Shown here one piece after another: positions 33,305 to 40,130 of a DNA stretch of 64,000 nt. Numbering within the stretch: position 1 is the first letter of the stretch; every line of letters begins with the position of its first letter. Origin of the DNA: Bacteroidales bacterium (lineage in GTDB: Bacteria > Bacteroidota > Bacteroidia > Bacteroidales > UBA932); contig JAKSJN010000008.1 in the NCBI GenBank assembly GCA_024402135.1, forward strand, positions 58,661-122,660, read 5' to 3'. Below the pieces are notes generated by a model, which had not been told where the DNA came from, searched no databases, and saw only the letters and a program-made list of their open reading frames with translations. The translations under genes were made by a program, and so were the position numbers.

Positions 33305-34732
33305 ATGAATAAGCAGGGACTGGAGGCCAAGCAGGTCCAGACACAGAAACTCTCGCCGCAGCAGATCCAGACGATCAAGCTGATCGAGCTCCCTATCCAG
33401 GACCTCGAGCTGAAGATCCGACAGACCTTCGACGAGAACCCTGTGCTTGATGACGACCCCAATCCCCAGGAGGACAATTCCAGCGAGAGCGATGAACCAA
33501 AGGATATCTCGCTCAGTGAAGTGAAGGATGATGGCGACATTCCTTATTACAGGACTCACATAGAGAGAGACAAGGACGAGCTTCCGCAATATAATACATT
33601 CTCTGTCAAGGAGAGTTTTTCCCAGAGTCTTATCACCCAGTTAGGGTTCCGCAATCTTGACGATCGCCGCATGGCTATCGGAAGATTCATAATATGCAGC
33701 CTCGATGATGACGGTTATCTTCGCCGTGACATCGATTCCATAGTTGACGATCTTGCCTTCAAGTCAGGAATAGAGACTGACTATGACGAAGTCCTCGACA
33801 TCCTTGAGATAATCCAGGATCTCGAGCCTGCCGGTGTCGGTGCACGTGATCTCCAGGAATGCCTTCTGCTGCAGCTGCAGCACAGTCCGGACAATGAAGT
33901 GAACCGCAACGCGATTGTCGTGATCGAGAATTACTTCAAGGAATTCGCCGGCAAGCATCATTCCCGCATAATGGCCCGTACAGGAATGGACGAGAGGCAG
34001 CTCAAGGAAGTGACCAGACGCATCATGAAGCTGAATCCGGCTCCGGGTGGCCAGATTGATGACTCCTATAACGACAGGGCAAGGCAGGTCATTCCCGATT
34101 TCAAGCTCAGGTATGATGATATCACCGGAGGGCAGGTCCTTGAGATGCCGCGTTTCCGCATTCCGGAAATACGTGTCCGCAAGGAATACAGCGAGATGGT
34201 GAAAGCCTCGGAGGCTGGCGCAGACAGGGCACAGAAGGAGGCCATTGCATTCGTGAAGCAGAAGTACAATTCCGCCAAATGGTTCGTGGAGGCGCTGAAG
34301 CAGCGCCAGAATACCCTCATGAAGACCATGCAGGCCATTCTGGACTATCAGCCTGAGTACTTCAAGGATGGCGATGAGTCCAAACTCCGTCCTATGGTAC
34401 TCAAGGACATTGCCGAAAAGACGGGTTTCGACATCTCGACCATCTCACGTGTGGTCAACAGCAAGTACATCGAGACAAGCTTCGGCATCATGCCGCTTAA
34501 ATATTTCTTCTCCGAAGGCCTTGCAAATCAGGACGGAGAGGAGGTCTCTACACGTGAGCTCAAGACTGCCCTCAAGGATATCATAGATGCGGAAGACAAG
34601 CGCAGGCCTCTGACCGACGAGCAGCTTGTCGACATGATGACCAAGAGGGGCTATAAAGTAGCACGCCGAACCGTCGCTAAGTATCGCGATCAGCTCGGCA
34701 TTCCTACTGCAAGGCTCAGAAAGGATCTCTGA
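33305..34732 (+). CDS. rpoN: RNA polymerase sigma-54 factor
   Basis: Directs RNA polymerase to -24/-12 promoters, which open only with an AAA+ enhancer-binding protein. The 475-residue protein starts with the Gln/Leu-rich region I (MNKQGLEAKQVQTQKLSPQQ) followed by an acidic region II (about 50-80), the core-binding domain, and the helix-turn-helix. The RpoN box ARRTVAKYRDQL is near 457. All regions are present. A strong matching promoter lies before groES at 61871 in this window. The stop is 5 bases from the convergent lipoprotein gene, with no terminator. Confidence 0.96.
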   Translation: MNKQGLEAKQVQTQKLSPQQIQTIKLIELPIQDLELKIRQTFDENPVLDDDPNPQEDNSSESDEPKDISLSEVKDDGDIPYYRTHIERDKDELPQYNTFSVKESFSQSLITQLGFRNLDDRRMAIGRFIICSLDDDGYLRRDIDSIVDDLAFKSGIETDYDEVLDILEIIQDLEPAGVGARDLQECLLLQLQHSPDNEVNRNAIVVIENYFKEFAGKHHSRIMARTGMDERQLKEVTRRIMKLNPAPGGQIDDSYNDRARQVIPDFKLRYDDITGGQVLEMPRFRIPEIRVRKEYSEMVKASEAGADRAQKEAIAFVKQKYNSAKWFVEALKQRQNTLMKTMQAILDYQPEYFKDGDESKLRPMVLKDIAEKTGFDISTISRVVNSKYIETSFGIMPLKYFFSEGLANQDGEEVSTRELKTALKDIIDAEDKRRPLTDEQLVDMMTKRGYKVARRTVAKYRDQLGIPTARLRKDL

Positions 34733-34737
34733 TTCTC

Positions 34738-35466
34738 TTATTGCTGTTTTGTAAGACTTCCCGTGGTGAAGTACTCTGTGGTCTCCTTTACGATTGCATT
34801 GTTTTCAATCTTGTGCCAGAGCCACTCAAGCTTGAGGTATATCTTGTCTTTCCCATCGGGAATCACATCCTCGATCGGCACGGAAACAAATCCATTCACG
34901 ACCTTGAGGTCGCCATCCTTGAAGCTGCTGTTTCCGTAATACTCGTTATAGGCGTTGTGGACAAACTGAAGATAGACAGTGTCGCCGACTGACTTCACGT
35001 CGTTGAACAGGAGGTCATAGTCATGGGGACCTGGAGATTCCTTCTTGACCACATAGTTGATGTTCATGTTCAGCATGTTCCTGGCCATCCATGCTCCTGC
35101 GACGTTGACAGGGTCGCTTACGACCTTGCCGTCGCCGTTCTTGTACTTGCCAGCATCTTCATCGCCTATTCTGACCAGGTCCTTGATGTCAACCTTGTGC
35201 CATTCCTTGAGCTGGATATCATATGAATTGTCGCTGGTCTGGGTAAGCACGTCACATATGATGTACACTCGTTTGATGCTGTCCGGGATGTTGCTGTATG
35301 AGTTCGATGCAATGTTAAGCTGGACGTTGTCGTCCGTGTAGAGGATTCCACCTTTCCACTGTGCCATCGATGAGTAGTTTGTCTGGATCGGGCCGTCTGG
35401 AAGGCAGGCGGTCATGGTAAATGCAAAGGCAATAGCTGTCAGTGCGGAAATGATTCTGTGTTTCAT
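34738..35466 (-). CDS. NigD-like lipoprotein
   Basis: 242 residues with a lipoprotein signal (MTAC, Cys21). The mature part alternates beta-strand segments, for example IKRVYIICDVLTQTSDNSYD (about 82-101) and DTVYLQFVHNAYNEYYGNSSF further on. The order of an OB-like N-terminal domain and a beta-sandwich C-terminal domain resembles NigD-like proteins of Bacteroides, but I rate this as possible only. The ATG at 35466 starts the signal; the longer frame to 35502 enters a 16-bp tandem repeat beside the mobile element. Its probable promoter (35562-35569) now lies inside the element's left end. Confidence 0.6.
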   Translation of the reverse strand: MKHRIISALTAIAFAFTMTACLPDGPIQTNYSSMAQWKGGILYTDDNVQLNIASNSYSNIPDSIKRVYIICDVLTQTSDNSYDIQLKEWHKVDIKDLVRIGDEDAGKYKNGDGKVVSDPVNVAGAWMARNMLNMNINYVVKKESPGPHDYDLLFNDVKSVGDTVYLQFVHNAYNEYYGNSSFKDGDLKVVNGFVSVPIEDVIPDGKDKIYLKLEWLWHKIENNAIVKETTEYFTTGSLTKQQ

Positions 35467-35484
35467 GTTGTTAAGTTTATAATT

Positions 35485-35516
35485 ATTTAGCCGAGAAAAC
35501 ATTTAGCCGAGAAAAC
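35485..35516. repeat. 16-bp tandem duplication at the left junction of the IS605-like element
   Basis: ATTTAGCCGAGAAAAC occurs twice head to tail (35485-35500 and 35501-35516), directly before the left hairpin. Part of the second copy (AGCCGA) pairs with TCGGCT at 35543-35548 as an outer stem of that hairpin. Confidence 0.85.
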
Positions 35517-35538
35517 CCATAAGTCTTCAGCTTATGGG
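35516..35538 (+). repeat. Left-end hairpin
   Basis: An 8-bp perfect stem, CCCATAAG/CTTATGGG, loop TCTTCAG, outer stem AGCCGA/TCGGCT with unpaired GAAAA and TGGA-type bases. Sequence and loop match the right-end hairpin at 38633. Confidence 0.85.
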
Positions 35539-35561
35539 TGGATCGGCTGTCCTTTCTGCTG

Positions 35562-35569
35562 CAAAGATA
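35562..35569 (-). promoter_or_regulatory. -7 box TATCTTTG facing the NigD-like lipoprotein gene
   Basis: Minus-strand TATCTTTG between the tnpA stop and the left hairpin. ATTG (35588-35591) lies 18 bases upstream as a partial -33 element. It points out of the element into 34738-35466. Confidence 0.45.
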
Positions 35570-35573
35570 ATCT

Positions 35574-35969
35574 TTAACCTTGGTTCTCAATATATCTTCG
35601 TACTGTTTCCGGTGAAGCTTCTCCGATTGAGCATACGAAGAATCCGTCGCTCCAGAAAGTTCGTTCTTTCCAACAGTGATGTCGTAGCCACTCTGGATAT
35701 CGTTTCCACAATTCATGTGTGCTGTCTTGTTTCAACCGTCGTACGATTGAAGTGACTGAGACATTTGGCGGATAGGATATCGGCATGTGAATATGGTCTT
35801 TGTCCGTTTCCATGACTTCAATAACGAAATCGGACACCTTCTCTATGTCAGAGAAGATGCCCTTGATGATTTGTTGCATGTCACCCTCAAGAAGACTCTT
35901 GCGATACTTGCAGACGAAGATGAGGTGGCATTTGAGGTAGAACTTATGTCGGTTTTGACATGTGTACAT
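35574..35969 (-). CDS. tnpA: IS200/IS605 family transposase TnpA (Y1 HUH)
   Basis: A 131-residue single-strand DNA transposase that cuts at hairpin-marked ends through a 5'-phosphotyrosine. It begins NRHKFYLKCHLIFVCKYRK, the standard start of the family, has the metal-binding HUH pair as His59-Ile-His61, and the catalytic tyrosine is Tyr126 in RRYIENQG. All are intact, so it is predicted active. Only 26 bases separate it from the stop of the upstream minus-strand gene; no promoter box is seen in that gap, so transcription may come from the sigma operon. Confidence 0.93.
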   Translation of the reverse strand: MYTCQNRHKFYLKCHLIFVCKYRKSLLEGDMQQIIKGIFSDIEKVSDFVIEVMETDKDHIHMPISYPPNVSVTSIVRRLKQDSTHELWKRYPEWLRHHCWKERTFWSDGFFVCSIGEASPETVRRYIENQG

Positions 35970-35980
35970 CGTCCGATTTC

Positions 35981-35996
35981 ATTGAGAGCGCTCAAT
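35981..35996. repeat. Short hairpin between the membrane-protein gene and tnpA
   Basis: ATTGAG and CTCAAT (6 bp) flank AGCG. It covers the stop of the gene at 35996 and has no T-run, so it is not a convincing terminator. It does not resemble the element-end hairpins. Confidence 0.45.
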
Positions 35997-36388
35997 CATG
36001 CACTCCTGCTCCACTCATTGGTATTAATGAGCGGCAATGAGCCCAAGATGAAACTCGTCGCTGCCAGGAGAGTCAGGATAATGCTTCTGTGATCAGTGTA
36101 GAACAGGGTTAACTCCGGGAACTGGTTATCCGTTAGCATGTGATTCAGCAAAGCATTGCCGGCGAGCGGATGGAATAGAACCAGGCTCATCAGAAAACAG
36201 CCTGTCAGCAATCCGACGATGAAACAGCAGACTGAGACCGTCTTGTGGAAACGGTTCATCCTGTCCTGTTCCGGTCTCACCATGTCTATCACATCCATCT
36301 TGCCGGAAATCTCCGTCATGATGCGTTCTGTATCGACTTCGGGCTTGAAACTCTTGAAGAGTTCATCTATTTCTATATCCTTATTCAT
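35996..36388 (-). CDS. Two-helix membrane protein, possible anti-sigma partner
   Basis: 130 residues: a cytoplasmic N-terminal part (1-50, DELFKSFKPEVDTERIMTE) and two membrane helices (about 51-73 and 104-121). Its start overlaps the end of the sigma-factor gene by 8 bases, so translation is coupled. Coupling to an ECF sigma gene plus a membrane protein with a cytoplasmic head is the usual anti-sigma layout, but no zinc-binding anti-sigma motif (HxxxCxxC) is present. I therefore give the role as possible only. GC content of the sampled lines (about 47-48%) is lower than in nearby rpoN. Confidence 0.6.
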   Translation of the reverse strand: MNKDIEIDELFKSFKPEVDTERIMTEISGKMDVIDMVRPEQDRMNRFHKTVSVCCFIVGLLTGCFLMSLVLFHPLAGNALLNHMLTDNQFPELTLFYTDHRSIILTLLAATSFILGSLPLINTNEWSRSA

Positions 36389-36860
36389 CTCTCAATTTTT
36401 CTTTCAGGTGATTCCTGCCTCTATTCAGATACGACTTGACCGTTCCTATGGGTTTTCGCATGACTATAGCTATGTCAATTATCTTCATGTCTTCCATGTA
36501 GAAGAGCAGAATTGCCGCCTTTTCATCCAATGGAAGTCCCTCTATGGCCGAGTACAATCCCTCATACTCCATACGGTTATGTCTCTCACTGCCCTCGATA
36601 TTGATCCCAGCCTCAAGCGGTTCTGTGGGAATGCTCTTTTTCCGCTTATGGTCAATGAAACCGTTGTAGGCGATTCTATACAACCATGTCGAGAACTTGA
36701 AATTTTCTACATATCCCCTGTAGGACAGGTAGGCTTTCAACGAGGTCTCCTGTGCGAGGTCCTCGGCTTCAGGATAATTGCCATCACAAAGAGCCAGGAG
36801 AAACTTCAACAGTCCCTCCTGCTCCCGTTCCAGCAATAGTATGAAGCGCTCGCGTGTCAT
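36381..36860 (-). CDS. ECF-type RNA polymerase sigma factor
   Basis: A 159-residue sigma-70 family protein with only regions 2 and 4. Region 2 (about 8-75) contains NYPEAEDLAQETSLKAYLSY and KFSTWLYRIAYNGFIDHKRK, matching the core-binding and -10 motifs. Region 4 (about 105-158) contains LPLDEKAAILLFYMEDMKI and the helix-turn-helix IAIVMRKPIGTVKSYLNRGR. It starts directly after the DUF6249-like gene (1 base from stop to ATG) and overlaps the next gene by 8 bases. It lies between the two transposition genes of the IS605-like element. Target promoters are unknown. Confidence 0.92.
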   Translation of the reverse strand: MTRERFILLLEREQEGLLKFLLALCDGNYPEAEDLAQETSLKAYLSYRGYVENFKFSTWLYRIAYNGFIDHKRKKSIPTEPLEAGINIEGSERHNRMEYEGLYSAIEGLPLDEKAAILLFYMEDMKIIDIAIVMRKPIGTVKSYLNRGRNHLKEKLRDE

Positions 36861-37274
36861 CTAGTCCTTGAGCATCTTCTTGCCCTTGAAATAACCAATA
36901 AGCAACGATGCACCGATGGCGATGAAACATGCGCCTCCCATAATATCGCCTTGAATGAGATGGCCTCTGGAGATGCATTCAATTATAGCGATGGAAAAGA
37001 AGACAACGGCAAACAGGCTGATACCGGTTCCACAGACAAGGAGAGCCAGAAGGACATATTGATTTACTGATTTGGACTGTTTGCCCGAGCGAAACAATTC
37101 TGGATCGATTGTCTGTCCCTTTTCTAAGGCAGACAGCAGCAGGTTGGTCTTCCTTTCTCCCTCCTTCTTCTTGAACCACATTACGATTGTCACGAAGCCG
37201 AGAATGAAAAGAATGACCATAAGGAAGGTCAGCAGATTGTTCAGCAGATTGTAAAGGTGTAAGTCCATATTCAA
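36861..37274 (-). CDS. Small membrane protein, DUF6249-like
   Basis: 137 residues with three membrane helices: about 10-32, 72-95 and 108-128, and a Lys-rich cytoplasmic loop (33-70, KKKEGERKTNLLLSALEKGQ) between the first two. Such proteins beside sigma-70 genes in Bacteroidota are filed as DUF6249; I assign this from recollection of layout and sequence pattern. It is first in the three-gene operon and follows a -7 box by 19 bases. It might sense membrane state for the sigma factor, which is a guess. Confidence 0.65.
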   Translation of the reverse strand: MNMDLHLYNLLNNLLTFLMVILFILGFVTIVMWFKKKEGERKTNLLLSALEKGQTIDPELFRSGKQSKSVNQYVLLALLVCGTGISLFAVVFFSIAIIECISRGHLIQGDIMGGACFIAIGASLLIGYFKGKKMLKD

Positions 37275-37292
37275 TACTTGTTTTAATTAATA

Positions 37293-37300
37293 CAAAGATA
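37293..37300 (-). promoter_or_regulatory. -7 box TATCTTTG for the sigma-factor operon
   Basis: Minus-strand TATCTTTG, full consensus, ending 18 bases before the ATG at 37274. No TTTG at the usual -33 distance. It makes the operon independent of tnpB, which runs the other way. Confidence 0.6.
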
Positions 37301-37429
37301 ACTTTTCAAAGACGTCTCTGCCTATATAAACGGAAACAGAGCATGAAAGGTTGCAACTATTGTTGTTATTTTAATAGATAACTATTTCGGACATTTGCTC
37401 AACTGCTTGATTTTTCGTATCTTTAAGTA

Positions 37430-38623
37430 ATGAAGACGGTGTATCGCACATATAGGTTCCGGATGTATCCGAACGCTGAGCAGCGGCAGGTTCTTGCCCG
37501 CTACTTCGGCTCTGTGCGCTTTATCTACAATCATTATCTTGCGGAGCGAAAACGACAGTATGAGGAGAACGGAAAGAGCGACAACTACAACGCTCAGGCG
37601 AAGGATCTTGTCATCCTCAAGCGTACTGAAGGCTTCGAATGGCTGAAAGAAATCAACAGCCAGACTCTGCAGCAGACGCTGATGCATCTCGACACTGCCT
37701 ACAAGAACTTCTTCAACCGTACGGCGGATTTTCCTAAGTTCAAGAGCAGGAAGAGGGGCGGCAGCTTCACTGTCCCGCAGTTCTGCTACATTGAGGACGG
37801 ATATGTCCATATCCCGAAGTTCAAGGAAGGACTGAAGGTTAAGGAACATCGCAAGGTCAAGGGTGCGGTGAGGTCAATGACCATCAGCATCACCCCTACA
37901 GGAAAATATTACGTAAGCATACTCACTGAAGAGCAGTACGAACCAATGCAGAGAACCAACGCATCGGTCGGGCTGGATATGGGCCTCAAGTCCCTTGTCA
38001 CCACTTCCGAGGGGGAGACTTACGACAACAACAGATACACGAAGAAGTACGAGCAAAAGCTCACTATGGCCCAGAAGCATCTTTCCAGAAAGAAGAAGGA
38101 CAGCAACAGTTGGGAGAAGCAGAGAATGAAGGTCGCCAAAATCCACGAGCACCTTGCGAACAGCCGCAAGGACTGGCAACACAAGGTCAGTGCAGACATC
38201 GTCAGACGGTATGACACCATCTGCGTAGAGGACCTCGGCGTCAAACAGATGGAGGAGAAGAAGACAAAGGCCGGAAAGAAGAACTGCCTGAGCAAATCCA
38301 TCAGCGATGCCGGATGGTCAAGTCTTGTCGCAATGATAGTGTACAAAGCAGAGATGAACGACAAGACAGTCGTCAAGGTGGACCGCTACTATCCGAGCAG
38401 CAAGACCTGCAGTGTCTGCGGCTGGAAGAACGAATCTCTGTCGCTTGCGGATCGAAGCTGGACTTGCCCGGAGTGCGGTACAAAGCATGACCGCGACGCG
38501 AATGCCGCGGTCAATATCTTAAGCGAAGGTCTTCGTGTATTGAGTAGTAAATCATCGGCGGGAACCGTCGATTACACTGGTGGAGGCAGTGTAAGACCTA
38601 CTTCGGTAGGCAGCCGCCTGTGA
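37430..38623 (+). CDS. tnpB: TnpB, RNA-guided RuvC-like nuclease of an IS605-family element
   Basis: A 397-residue ancestor-type relative of Cas12. After the N-terminal RNA-binding part come the RuvC residues: Asp183 in GLDMGLKSL, Glu267 in CVEDLGVKQM and Asp356 in HDRDANAAVN. The zinc finger has Cys327, Cys330, Cys346 and Cys349. All are intact, so cleavage activity is predicted, unlike the nuclease-dead TldR repressors. Known TnpB proteins use an omega RNA from the element's right end to cut the donor-matching site and keep the element in place. The ATG at 37430 follows TATCTTTA, a near -7 box. Its stop lies in the outer stem of the right-end hairpin. Confidence 0.95.
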   Translation: MKTVYRTYRFRMYPNAEQRQVLARYFGSVRFIYNHYLAERKRQYEENGKSDNYNAQAKDLVILKRTEGFEWLKEINSQTLQQTLMHLDTAYKNFFNRTADFPKFKSRKRGGSFTVPQFCYIEDGYVHIPKFKEGLKVKEHRKVKGAVRSMTISITPTGKYYVSILTEEQYEPMQRTNASVGLDMGLKSLVTTSEGETYDNNRYTKKYEQKLTMAQKHLSRKKKDSNSWEKQRMKVAKIHEHLANSRKDWQHKVSADIVRRYDTICVEDLGVKQMEEKKTKAGKKNCLSKSISDAGWSSLVAMIVYKAEMNDKTVVKVDRYYPSSKTCSVCGWKNESLSLADRSWTCPECGTKHDRDANAAVNILSEGLRVLSSKSSAGTVDYTGGGSVRPTSVGSRL

Positions 38624-38663
38624 AGCCAGAAGCCCAAAAGTCTTTAGCTTTTGGGTGGTTCAC
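38500..38663 (+). ncRNA. Candidate omega RNA at the tnpB 3' end
   Basis: TnpB guide RNAs overlap the tnpB 3' end and run through the right end into flanking DNA. Here the last 120 bases of tnpB hold several hairpins, for example CCTAC-TTCG-GTAGG (38597-38610), followed by the right-end hairpin at 38633-38655. The guide would begin near 38664 in the flanking regulator gene. The 5' boundary is a guess. Confidence 0.4.
38633..38655 (+). repeat. Right-end hairpin
   Basis: CCCAAAAG/CTTTTGGG, loop TCTTTAG, with an outer stem GTGAA-CC (38620-38627) to GGTTCAC (38657-38663). It covers the region between the tnpB stop and the regulator stop. Confidence 0.85.
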
Positions 38664-39121
38664 TGTTGTCTGCTGGTCCTCCTGTTGGGATGACCTATGA
38701 TCTGAATGTCGATGGAATCGACTTTGAATCCCTTGAACTTGCGTGATTTGATACGGTTGTCAATAAAGTCTGTCAGTTCCTTGTCAACGAAGTCCACATA
38801 TTCGTTGTTCTGGATGTCGTAAAGATGAATGTGACGATTGGTGTTGACGTCGAAATACATCTTGTTGTTGGCGCTCATCCGGTGGTGGTATACCCCGAGG
38901 AGGGCCATCTGGGAAAGGATGTTGTACACCGTCGCGACGGAGACCTTGCATCTGCCGTTGTCCTTGATCCATTCGGCAACGCTGTCAGCACTGGCATGGC
39001 AGAGAGTCAGCATCGCTTCATGTACGGCAAGTCGCTGTGCAGTTGCCTTGAGGGCATGGATCCGGAGTGTTTCCCGGAACTGCAGCATGCGGTCTGCTGT
39101 CTTTGTCTGGTTGGTTTGCAT
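38660..39121 (-). CDS. Fur/PerR-family transcriptional regulator
   Basis: A 153-residue protein with a winged-helix N-terminal domain (about 12-85: LKATAQRLAVHEAML and VSVATVYNILSQMALLGV, the Fur recognition helix) and a dimerisation domain with RHIHLYDIQNNEYVDF. The CxxC pairs that hold structural zinc in most Fur proteins are missing. Its neighbour trxB, divergent, suggests a PerR-like peroxide response. The ATG at 39121 is preferred over a TTG at 39142. The stop (38660-38662) lies inside the right-end hairpin region of the mobile element, so the last residues may come from the element. Confidence 0.88.
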   Translation of the reverse strand: MQTNQTKTADRMLQFRETLRIHALKATAQRLAVHEAMLTLCHASADSVAEWIKDNGRCKVSVATVYNILSQMALLGVYHHRMSANNKMYFDVNTNRHIHLYDIQNNEYVDFVDKELTDFIDNRIKSRKFKGFKVDSIDIQIIGHPNRRTSRQQ

Positions 39122-39139
39122 AGGTTGTCCTTGGGAACG

Positions 39140-39147
39140 CAAATATA
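39140..39147 (-). promoter_or_regulatory. -7 box TATATTTG for the Fur-family gene
   Basis: Minus-strand TATATTTG, full match; leader about 14 bases to the ATG at 39121. Confidence 0.6.
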
Positions 39148-39169
39148 ATAATAATTGTATGAAAATGGC

Positions 39170-39177
39170 TATATTTG
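39170..39177 (+). promoter_or_regulatory. -7 box TATATTTG for trxB
   Basis: Full TAnnTTTG match, 29 bases before the ATG at 39207. It is back-to-back with the regulator's box, so the regulator could control both genes from the 22 bases between. Confidence 0.6.
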
Positions 39178-39206
39178 CATGTTGTCCTCAAAGGGACCAG
39201 ATATTC

Positions 39207-40130
39207 ATGGAAAAGACAAGATGCCTTATAATCGGAGGCGGCCCGGCAGGATATACTGCAGCCATCTATGCTTCCAGAGCTTCTCTTGCTCCAGTGCTCT
39301 ATGAGGGTATGGAGCCGGGCGGTCAGCTGACAACTACCACAATGGTCGAGAACTATCCAGGTTTCGCGGATGGTGTAGATGCAAACGAACTGATGACCGC
39401 AATGCGCAAGCAGGCTGCCAATTACGGCGCAGATATCCGTCGTGGCACGGTGACATCCGTCGATTTCTCGACCAGGCCTCTCCGTGTCACCATTGATTCG
39501 GAGAACGAGATCGAGGCCGATGCCGTCATCATCGCTACCGGAGCTTCGGCGAAGTATCTCGGTCTTCCTTCCGAGCGCAAGTTCCGCGGCATGGGCGTCA
39601 GCGCATGTGCTACCTGTGACGGCTTCTTCTATCGCAAGAGAGTCGTGGCGGTCGTAGGTGGCGGAGACACAGCCTGTGAGGAGGCTTCATATCTCGCCGG
39701 TCTTGCACGTAAAGTATACATGATCGTGCGCAGGGATGTCCTCAGGGCTTCCAAGGCCATGCAGGAAAGAGTAATGAATCTTCCTAATGTCGAGATCCTC
39801 TGGAACTGCAATACCGAGGAGATTCTCGGGGATGCGGACGGAGTGACCGGCGCACGTCTCCGCCGCAAGGATGGCGAGGTTTTTGATATCGAAATCGATG
39901 GATTTTTCCTTGCAATCGGACACCATCCAAATGCAGAGGTTTTCTCACAGTGGATCGAGACTGATGAACAGGGGTATATCATTACAGAAGGCAAGACTAC
40001 CCGTACCAATGTACCCGGTGTCTTCGCTGCCGGTGATGTGATGGATCCGCTCTATCGTCAGGCCGTGTCTGCCGCAGGCTCAGGATGTCATGCGGCCATG
40101 GATGCGGAAAAGTATTTAATGGGACTTTAA
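39207..40130 (+). CDS. trxB: Thioredoxin reductase
   Basis: NADPH-dependent flavoenzyme that reduces thioredoxin in the cytoplasm. The 307-residue protein has the FAD motif IIGGGPAGYTAAIYASRA at 8-25, the redox pair in SACATCDGFFY near 133-142, the NADPH motif VGGGDTACEEASYLAG near 151 and the FAD-end motif GVFAAGDVMD near 272. The ATG at 39207 begins directly with the flavin fold; the same frame is open upstream but runs over the promoter and the opposite regulator gene. BamD follows after 9 bases. Confidence 0.96.
   Translation: MEKTRCLIIGGGPAGYTAAIYASRASLAPVLYEGMEPGGQLTTTTMVENYPGFADGVDANELMTAMRKQAANYGADIRRGTVTSVDFSTRPLRVTIDSENEIEADAVIIATGASAKYLGLPSERKFRGMGVSACATCDGFFYRKRVVAVVGGGDTACEEASYLAGLARKVYMIVRRDVLRASKAMQERVMNLPNVEILWNCNTEEILGDADGVTGARLRRKDGEVFDIEIDGFFLAIGHHPNAEVFSQWIETDEQGYIITEGKTTRTNVPGVFAAGDVMDPLYRQAVSAAGSGCHAAMDAEKYLMGL

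Follow-up and report, generated by a model that had tools for sequence, protein, structure and literature searches.

TnpB, the ancestor of Cas12, has relatives that are tied to transcription control, such as TldR and the dead Cas12f-sigma systems. Transporter insertion sequences (transporter IS), i.e., insertion sequences (IS) with passenger genes, are known for IS families of the DDE type. The abstract of PMC8612924 describes the IS200/IS605 elements as having no genes other than those of transposition and its regulation. Here we describe an IS605-like unit of 3,183 bp (35481-38663) located in a stretch of 64,000 nucleotides (the window) from Bacteroidales bacterium (assembly GCA_024402135.1, contig JAKSJN010000008.1, positions 58,661 to 122,660). 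The unit resembles the group of IS605 from Helicobacter pylori by its Y1 TnpA, about 52% identical to those of H. pylori plasmid and phage copies, by its divergent tnpB, by its subterminal hairpins, and by a short 5' target without duplication, but it adds three genes between tnpA and tnpB, a gap that ranges from at most 46 bp to about 70 bp in the annotated comparators. These three cargo genes depart from the transposition-genes-only description, which is the usual description and no strict criterion. We consider it probable (about 0.72) that the unit is a single IS605-type element that has captured a host-type extracytoplasmic function (ECF) sigma operon between its divergent tnpA and tnpB genes, and, with less confidence, that tnpA is read within that operon.

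The unit comprises the left end, tnpA, a gene for a protein of 130 amino acids (aa), an ECF sigma factor gene and a DUF6249-like gene, these four genes on the minus strand, followed by tnpB on the plus strand and the right end (Table 1). Along the minus strand the DUF6249-like gene is the first of the row and tnpA would come last. The tnpA product matches Y1_Tnp with an E-value of 2.8e-35, passing the Pfam cut-off, and also transpos_IS200 of NCBIfam above its cut-off, and its catalytic residues, the HUH motif and the tyrosine, are present in the alignment. The tnpB product passes the Pfam cut-offs of OrfB_IS605 and Cas12f1-like_TNB, its RuvC residues D183, E267 and D356 are intact and its four cysteines are kept. 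In the sigma factor Pfam finds just Sigma70_r2 and Sigma70_r4_2, without region 3 domains. Against DUF6249 the protein of the window scores 29.4 bits, under the 33-bit cut-off, whereas the homologue in G212 reaches 37.9 bits, above it (G000 denotes the window's own genome, and G225, G212 and the like the compared genomes). Pfam yields no match for the 130-aa protein at E 0.001, nor any anti-sigma domain, and hydropathy gives two and three hydrophobic stretches for the two cargo membrane proteins. Domain matches and hydropathy thus agree with the preliminary description of this DNA, which had noticed a divergent tnpA/tnpB pair with an ECF sigma factor and two membrane proteins between them. All the reading frames of the unit are open and intact, and the G+C content of the cargo is 45.5% vs. 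51.7% for the window. The host genome encodes a single Y1 transposase and one further TnpB above cut-off. A second TnpB-family gene (G000:C1:312466-313371; L065, L077) is distant, sharing about 24% identity with the window TnpB.

The two end hairpins, reported before as being of one sequence type and one orientation, are both present and lie on the same strand. The 2.61-Mb genome contains their pattern at exactly these two places, and the backward control gave 0. The reported absence of inner hairpins also holds, since within the 64-kb window a search allowing up to 3 mismatches still yields just the two end copies, against 0.02 expected in shuffled sequence. When folded as DNA, both ends outdo 200/200 shuffles (z -4.57 and -3.50). 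The unit enters after TTTAT, its left end reads AATTATTTAG, and its right end is TTCAC. The right edge first proposed, 38663, is exact, and the left one, 35505, has been corrected to 35481, with the target TTTAT at 35476-35480. TTTAT flanks five of six left ends, that of G225 being TTAAT, and it is likely to double as the TnpB motif (transposon-adjacent motif, TAM). The right ends are alike through TTCAC in the 10 copies compared, and the sequence beyond TTCAC differs. No Rfam family matched at gathering thresholds in 34500-39500.

The evidence that the unit is one element comes mainly from another species of the same genus. When 400 genus genomes were searched at the DNA level, with two candidates per genome scored, cargo operon DNA turned up in at least three of them: G000, G225, and G212. 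G225 contains the whole unit (88% identity over window 35501-38664) with the same ends at a different locus, downstream of a gene that is presumably pnp; of the outer flank of this insertion, only the left side matches G000. At the site of the window, rpoN, nigD, and fur are consecutive in G225, and the nigD-fur interval is empty of cargo and tnp genes. The junction is exact: G225 reads GTTGTTAAGTTTAT/TGTTGTCT (the empty-site sequence being TTTAT/TGTTGTC), and the window reads GTTGTTAAGTTTAT, the element, and TGTTGTCT, with no target duplication. Among 16 further fur loci, nigD lies at about 70 bp or less from fur with no tnp gene there in 6; the remaining 10, where the two genes are not neighbours, fall outside the empty-site count. 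A check of relatives for the same ends and for occupied and empty sites had been proposed, and G225 supplies both, with the entire unit at a second locus and the window site empty to the base, as expected from the single-element reading. Close copies were found in two genomes out of 393 from the order (that of the window, and G455 with 47%), in a single one out of 338 G118 relatives (G118), and in two out of 339 from the family (G000 and G225), three sets that overlap heavily.

By this comparison, the unit has fixed ends, occupies two unlike loci in two species, and entered the window site exactly after TTTAT without duplication. The ends, the target, and TnpA fit peel-and-paste transposition, and TnpA would move the unit as a single strand by this mechanism. 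In ISDra2, according to the excerpts of PMC8612924, the RNA guide of TnpB comes from the right flank, and the emptied site is targeted. Because TTTAT stands next to the right-flank sequence, the emptied site would be a TnpB target as in ISDra2; TnpB, guided by the right flank, would cut it, and repair would restore the element.

Table 1. Features of the IS605-like unit and its borders (window coordinates)
Feature	Position	Strand	Remarks
TTTAT target left of the element	35476..35480	+	Flanks 5/6 left ends; retained in the G225 empty site
Left end	35481..35573	+	Includes hairpin CCCATAAG-TCTTCAG-CTTATGGG at 35516-35538
tnpA, Y1 HUH transposase, 131 aa	35574..35969	-	HUH H59/H61, Tyr126; unusual Pro63
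Cargo gene 3, 130-aa protein with two hydrophobic stretches	35996..36388	-	Anti-sigma-like placement; putative role
Cargo gene 2, ECF sigma factor, 159 aa	36381..36860	-	Sigma70_r2 and Sigma70_r4_2, above Pfam cut-offs
Cargo gene 1, DUF6249-like membrane protein, 137 aa	36861..37274	-	
ECF-type promoter motif of the cargo operon, TGCAAC-N18-GTTTAT	37326..37355	-	
tnpB housekeeping-type promoter, TTTG-N20-TATCTTTA	37394..37425	+	Housekeeping-type consensus
tnpB, RNA-guided nuclease, 397 aa	37430..38623	+	D183/E267/D356; four zinc cysteines
Right end and presumed omega-RNA scaffold	38514..38663	+	Hairpin CCCAAAAG-TCTTTAG-CTTTTGGG at 38633-38655, strand identical to the left hairpin; final TTCAC
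Presumed TnpB RNA guide (right flank)	38664..38683	+	By analogy with ISDra2 (excerpts of PMC8612924)

The cargo itself looks like a host-type operon that has been captured. G212 contains the same three-gene operon (76% identity), and no tnpA, tnpB, or matching hairpin was found in the 7.9 kb around it, so that the operon looks acquired from a host. The homology between the window and G212 spans from the last codons and stop of the operon to slightly past its promoter. More distant relatives of the sigma factor (37-49% identity) are common; DUF6249 adjoins the sigma gene in 16 of 29 loci, and none of the 29 has tnpA or tnpB within up to 1.5 kb on each side. The cargo thus resembles the operons of Cryptobacteroides that encode DUF6249, an ECF sigma factor, and a membrane protein, both in the DUF6249 gene beside sigma and in an ECF-type promoter motif found in G212 and in 6 of 30 paralogous loci, but these operons have no tnpA/tnpB within the stretches compared.

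The position occupied by the operon seems to be a recurrent cargo slot. The window TnpA forms a clade (support 100/99) with those of L092 (G225), L093 (G118), L094, and L095 (G292; partial), and in all five there is cargo directly upstream of tnpA on the same strand. L094 contains a 310-aa open reading frame (ORF) with a match to Mfa-like (fimbrillin-like, lipoprotein) proteins, and L093 has a related gene split in two frames, the first piece without an Mfa-like match. The stretch from cargo through tnpA is 68% identical between these two (1,462 bp of DNA), which lie at two unlike loci; the contig of L093 shows no tnpB, and that of L094 ends within tnpB. L095 contains a 254-aa ORF that fuses sigma region 2 to a membrane protein, read as a putative deleted second sigma operon, and its tnpA holds a TAG stop. 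In G163 there is a truncated tnpA at 88 bp from tnpB. Across 80 genome loci, tnpB is upstream of tnpA in 40 and downstream in 24, is not present on the contig in 15, and one has no tnpA ORF. Five of the 40 loci with upstream tnpB (L092, L096, L097, L094, and L095) hold a cargo ORF of at least 150 aa, the search being confined to loci with a tnpA-tnpB gap above 180 bp, and the cargo of L094 and L095 being taken from ORF lists. The ORF of L096 (5435-5992), from an Erysipelotrichaceae metagenome-assembled genome (MAG), has 185 aa and no Pfam match, overlaps the tnpA start, and is possibly another cargo. The tnpB-tnpA interval of L097, from an epsilonproteobacterial MAG, holds a Fic-domain gene (1423-2031), but beside tnpB and on its strand, i.e., in a different slot.

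Viral relatives with 65-67% TnpA identity have a gap of 85-88 bp in four of five cases, the fifth having 351 bp with a 74-aa ORF. No intervening ORF of at least 100 aa was found in 38 viral loci, 33 of them with tnpB (L210-L213, with overlapping frames, were left out), and 11 pattern matches for sigma cargo in viral contigs gave 0 confirmed cases. On the tree, the cargo label needs three changes, a value equally low in just 1 of 500 shuffles. Since most of the wider relatives are compact, the compact layout is likely to be older. The unit would in this respect resemble a transporter IS, with passengers within an element whose relatives, compared by TnpA identity and gene layout, lack them, although sigma may serve transposition.

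The arrangement of the promoters suggests how the cargo and the transposase could be linked. Of 33 upstream regions, 9 contain the motif TGYAAC-N17-19-GYYTA, namely those of the window, G225 and G212 and those of 6 among 30 paralogous loci, with a mean of 0.13 and a maximum of 3 in 500 shuffles of two-base blocks and 0 in two strand and reversal controls. This ECF-type promoter is retained in both sigma-bearing copies. The start of tnpA is 26 bp past the last cargo stop, and no housekeeping-type promoter was found in the 300 bp before the window tnpA; the compact L105 and L106 have one such promoter each before tnpA. According to our proposal, the cargo supplied its own autoregulated ECF promoter, and tnpA, for which no own promoter was detected, would be co-transcribed as the fourth gene of the operon. 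In the absence of a signal the sigma factor would be kept bound by one of the operon's membrane proteins; once released by the signal, it would transcribe its own operon and tnpA, tying transposition to the signal. We regard it as an even chance, judging from the sequence, that sigma drives tnpA as the fourth gene of its operon; the captured switch may in that case control the timing of the jumps of the element.

Several observations weigh against a single, sigma-driven element, some of them concerning its expression and others its history. The ECF-type motif was picked after inspecting the sequences, and its strict form, with a single occurrence in the genome, at the cargo operon, also has one in the backward control. 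A housekeeping-type half-site (TATCTTTG, with a -33 box having 2 mismatches) precedes the cargo operon. By the same scan the compact L101 has no promoter and L093 has weak candidates before tnpA, so the absence of a hit before the window tnpA is weak evidence. The anti-sigma role of the cargo membrane protein is proposed from its position only. It is a real possibility, short of an even chance, that the unit is one mobile element whose sigma operon travels along as a passive passenger without a role in transposition, tnpA using an unrecognised promoter. The Mfa-like lipoprotein cargo, a non-regulator in the same slot, speaks for it, as do L095, with its deleted sigma cargo and its tnpA with a stop codon, and the crudeness of the tnpA promoter scan. 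A passive passenger is harder to reconcile with the low dN/dS (ratio of nonsynonymous to synonymous divergence) of the cargo (0.15 in the sigma gene and 0.26 and 0.21 in the two remaining genes), with tnpA lying only 26 bp behind it, and with the ECF-type promoter being kept in both copies.

As for the history of the unit, the synonymous divergence (dS) between G000 and G225, in a comparison that leaves out fur, is 0.000 for tnpA, 0.20 for tnpB, 0.35 for cargo gene 3, 0.48 for sigma, and 0.93 for the DUF6249-like gene, vs. 0.96 for rpoN. Considering the tnpA value against the 0.35-0.93 of the cargo, the descent of the parts involved exchange: the tnp parts were recently exchanged or spread, and the cargo is older. 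In 100-bp windows identity is 99-100% over most of tnpA and in blocks of tnpB, and 68-93% in the cargo. The near identity of tnpA in two species with an rpoN dS of 0.96 therefore indicates a recent spread of tnpA. The tnpB gene appears as a mosaic (window 37640-38040 and 38340-38640 vs. L067), with near-identical blocks alternating with blocks of 82-89%, which suggests exchange between copies. The G225 DUF6249-like gene is closer to that of G212 (dS 0.58) than to that of the window (0.93), a further sign of exchange. Since the tnpA junction lies within a near-identical block, a single shared capture of the cargo is favoured, although separate captures of related operons could also account for the two copies.

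The ends and the transposase also show irregularities. In the window, 16 bp are duplicated in tandem between target and left hairpin (35485-35516, two copies of ATTTAGCCGAGAAAAC), a feature absent from the five other left ends compared, and the G225 left hairpin (L067 5309-5352) is a long perfect stem with the loop inverted with respect to the window. This G225 loop looks palindrome-flipped. Pro63 adjoins the HUH motif in both sigma-bearing copies, and the window TnpA has Cys99. The copies of the window and G225 may thus be weakened or relics. A unit that was once mobile but has since become fixed and is decaying in the two hosts, a reading that overlaps with that of the passive passenger, is possible, though less likely than not: the irregular left ends in both copies, Pro63, and the single genome copy would fit, but the tnpA dS of 0.000 in species with an rpoN dS of 0.96 indicates recent spread, the catalytic residues are present, and the frames are intact.

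According to another reading, two elements, an IS200-like one with tnpA and another with tnpB alone, would have inserted separately around a resident operon. A tnpB-only copy with an edge in 37300-37430 had been named in the preliminary description as evidence against one element, and such a copy does exist in G194 (L074 5045-6262): it shares 94% identity with the window tnpB, the match begins at 37408, beside the own promoter of tnpB, and no tnpA match was found in the 11 kb around it. The two-locus evidence stands nevertheless. Because G225 has the whole unit with the same ends elsewhere and an exact empty site, lacking cargo and tnp genes, at the window position, separate insertions are excluded for the window locus, where there is also no inner end hairpin, and we consider this reading very improbable, although such a pair of insertions could have founded the composite. 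The idea that TnpB cooperates with sigma in RNA-guided transcription, after the manner of the dead Cas12f-sigma systems and TldR, suggested by an ECF sigma gene near a TnpB gene, is to be rejected almost entirely, given that the three TnpB catalytic residues D183, E267, and D356 are present, the genes are divergent, the clade has non-regulatory cargo, and the sigma factor looks like cargo.

Among the matches listed in literature searches on IS605 cargo, on sigma with TnpB or Cas12f, and on ECF sigma in transposons, where subscription journals are thinly covered, there was no such element and no IS605 transporter IS, and those listed for DUF6249 and Cryptobacteroides contained nothing relevant; this silence is weak evidence for the novelty of a sigma-carrying IS605 element. 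More tentatively, the sequences could reflect an IS605 lineage with a cargo slot just upstream of tnpA, where host operons, once captured, take over from the promoter of the transposase. An element with the ECF sigma operon as cargo would then possess a closed switch, the one strict promoter match of the genome being that of its own operon followed by tnpA; transposition would be gated by an envelope-type signal and TnpB would secure the donor copy, a broader proposal that we consider less likely than not. If a lineage does repeatedly acquire host operons, the IS200/IS605 elements would serve as vehicles for genes, and a transposase situated downstream of a sigma-factor circuit would offer a case in which signal-gated transposition can be tested directly. 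These elements would also show how, in nature, single-strand transposition together with TnpB maintains a cargo.

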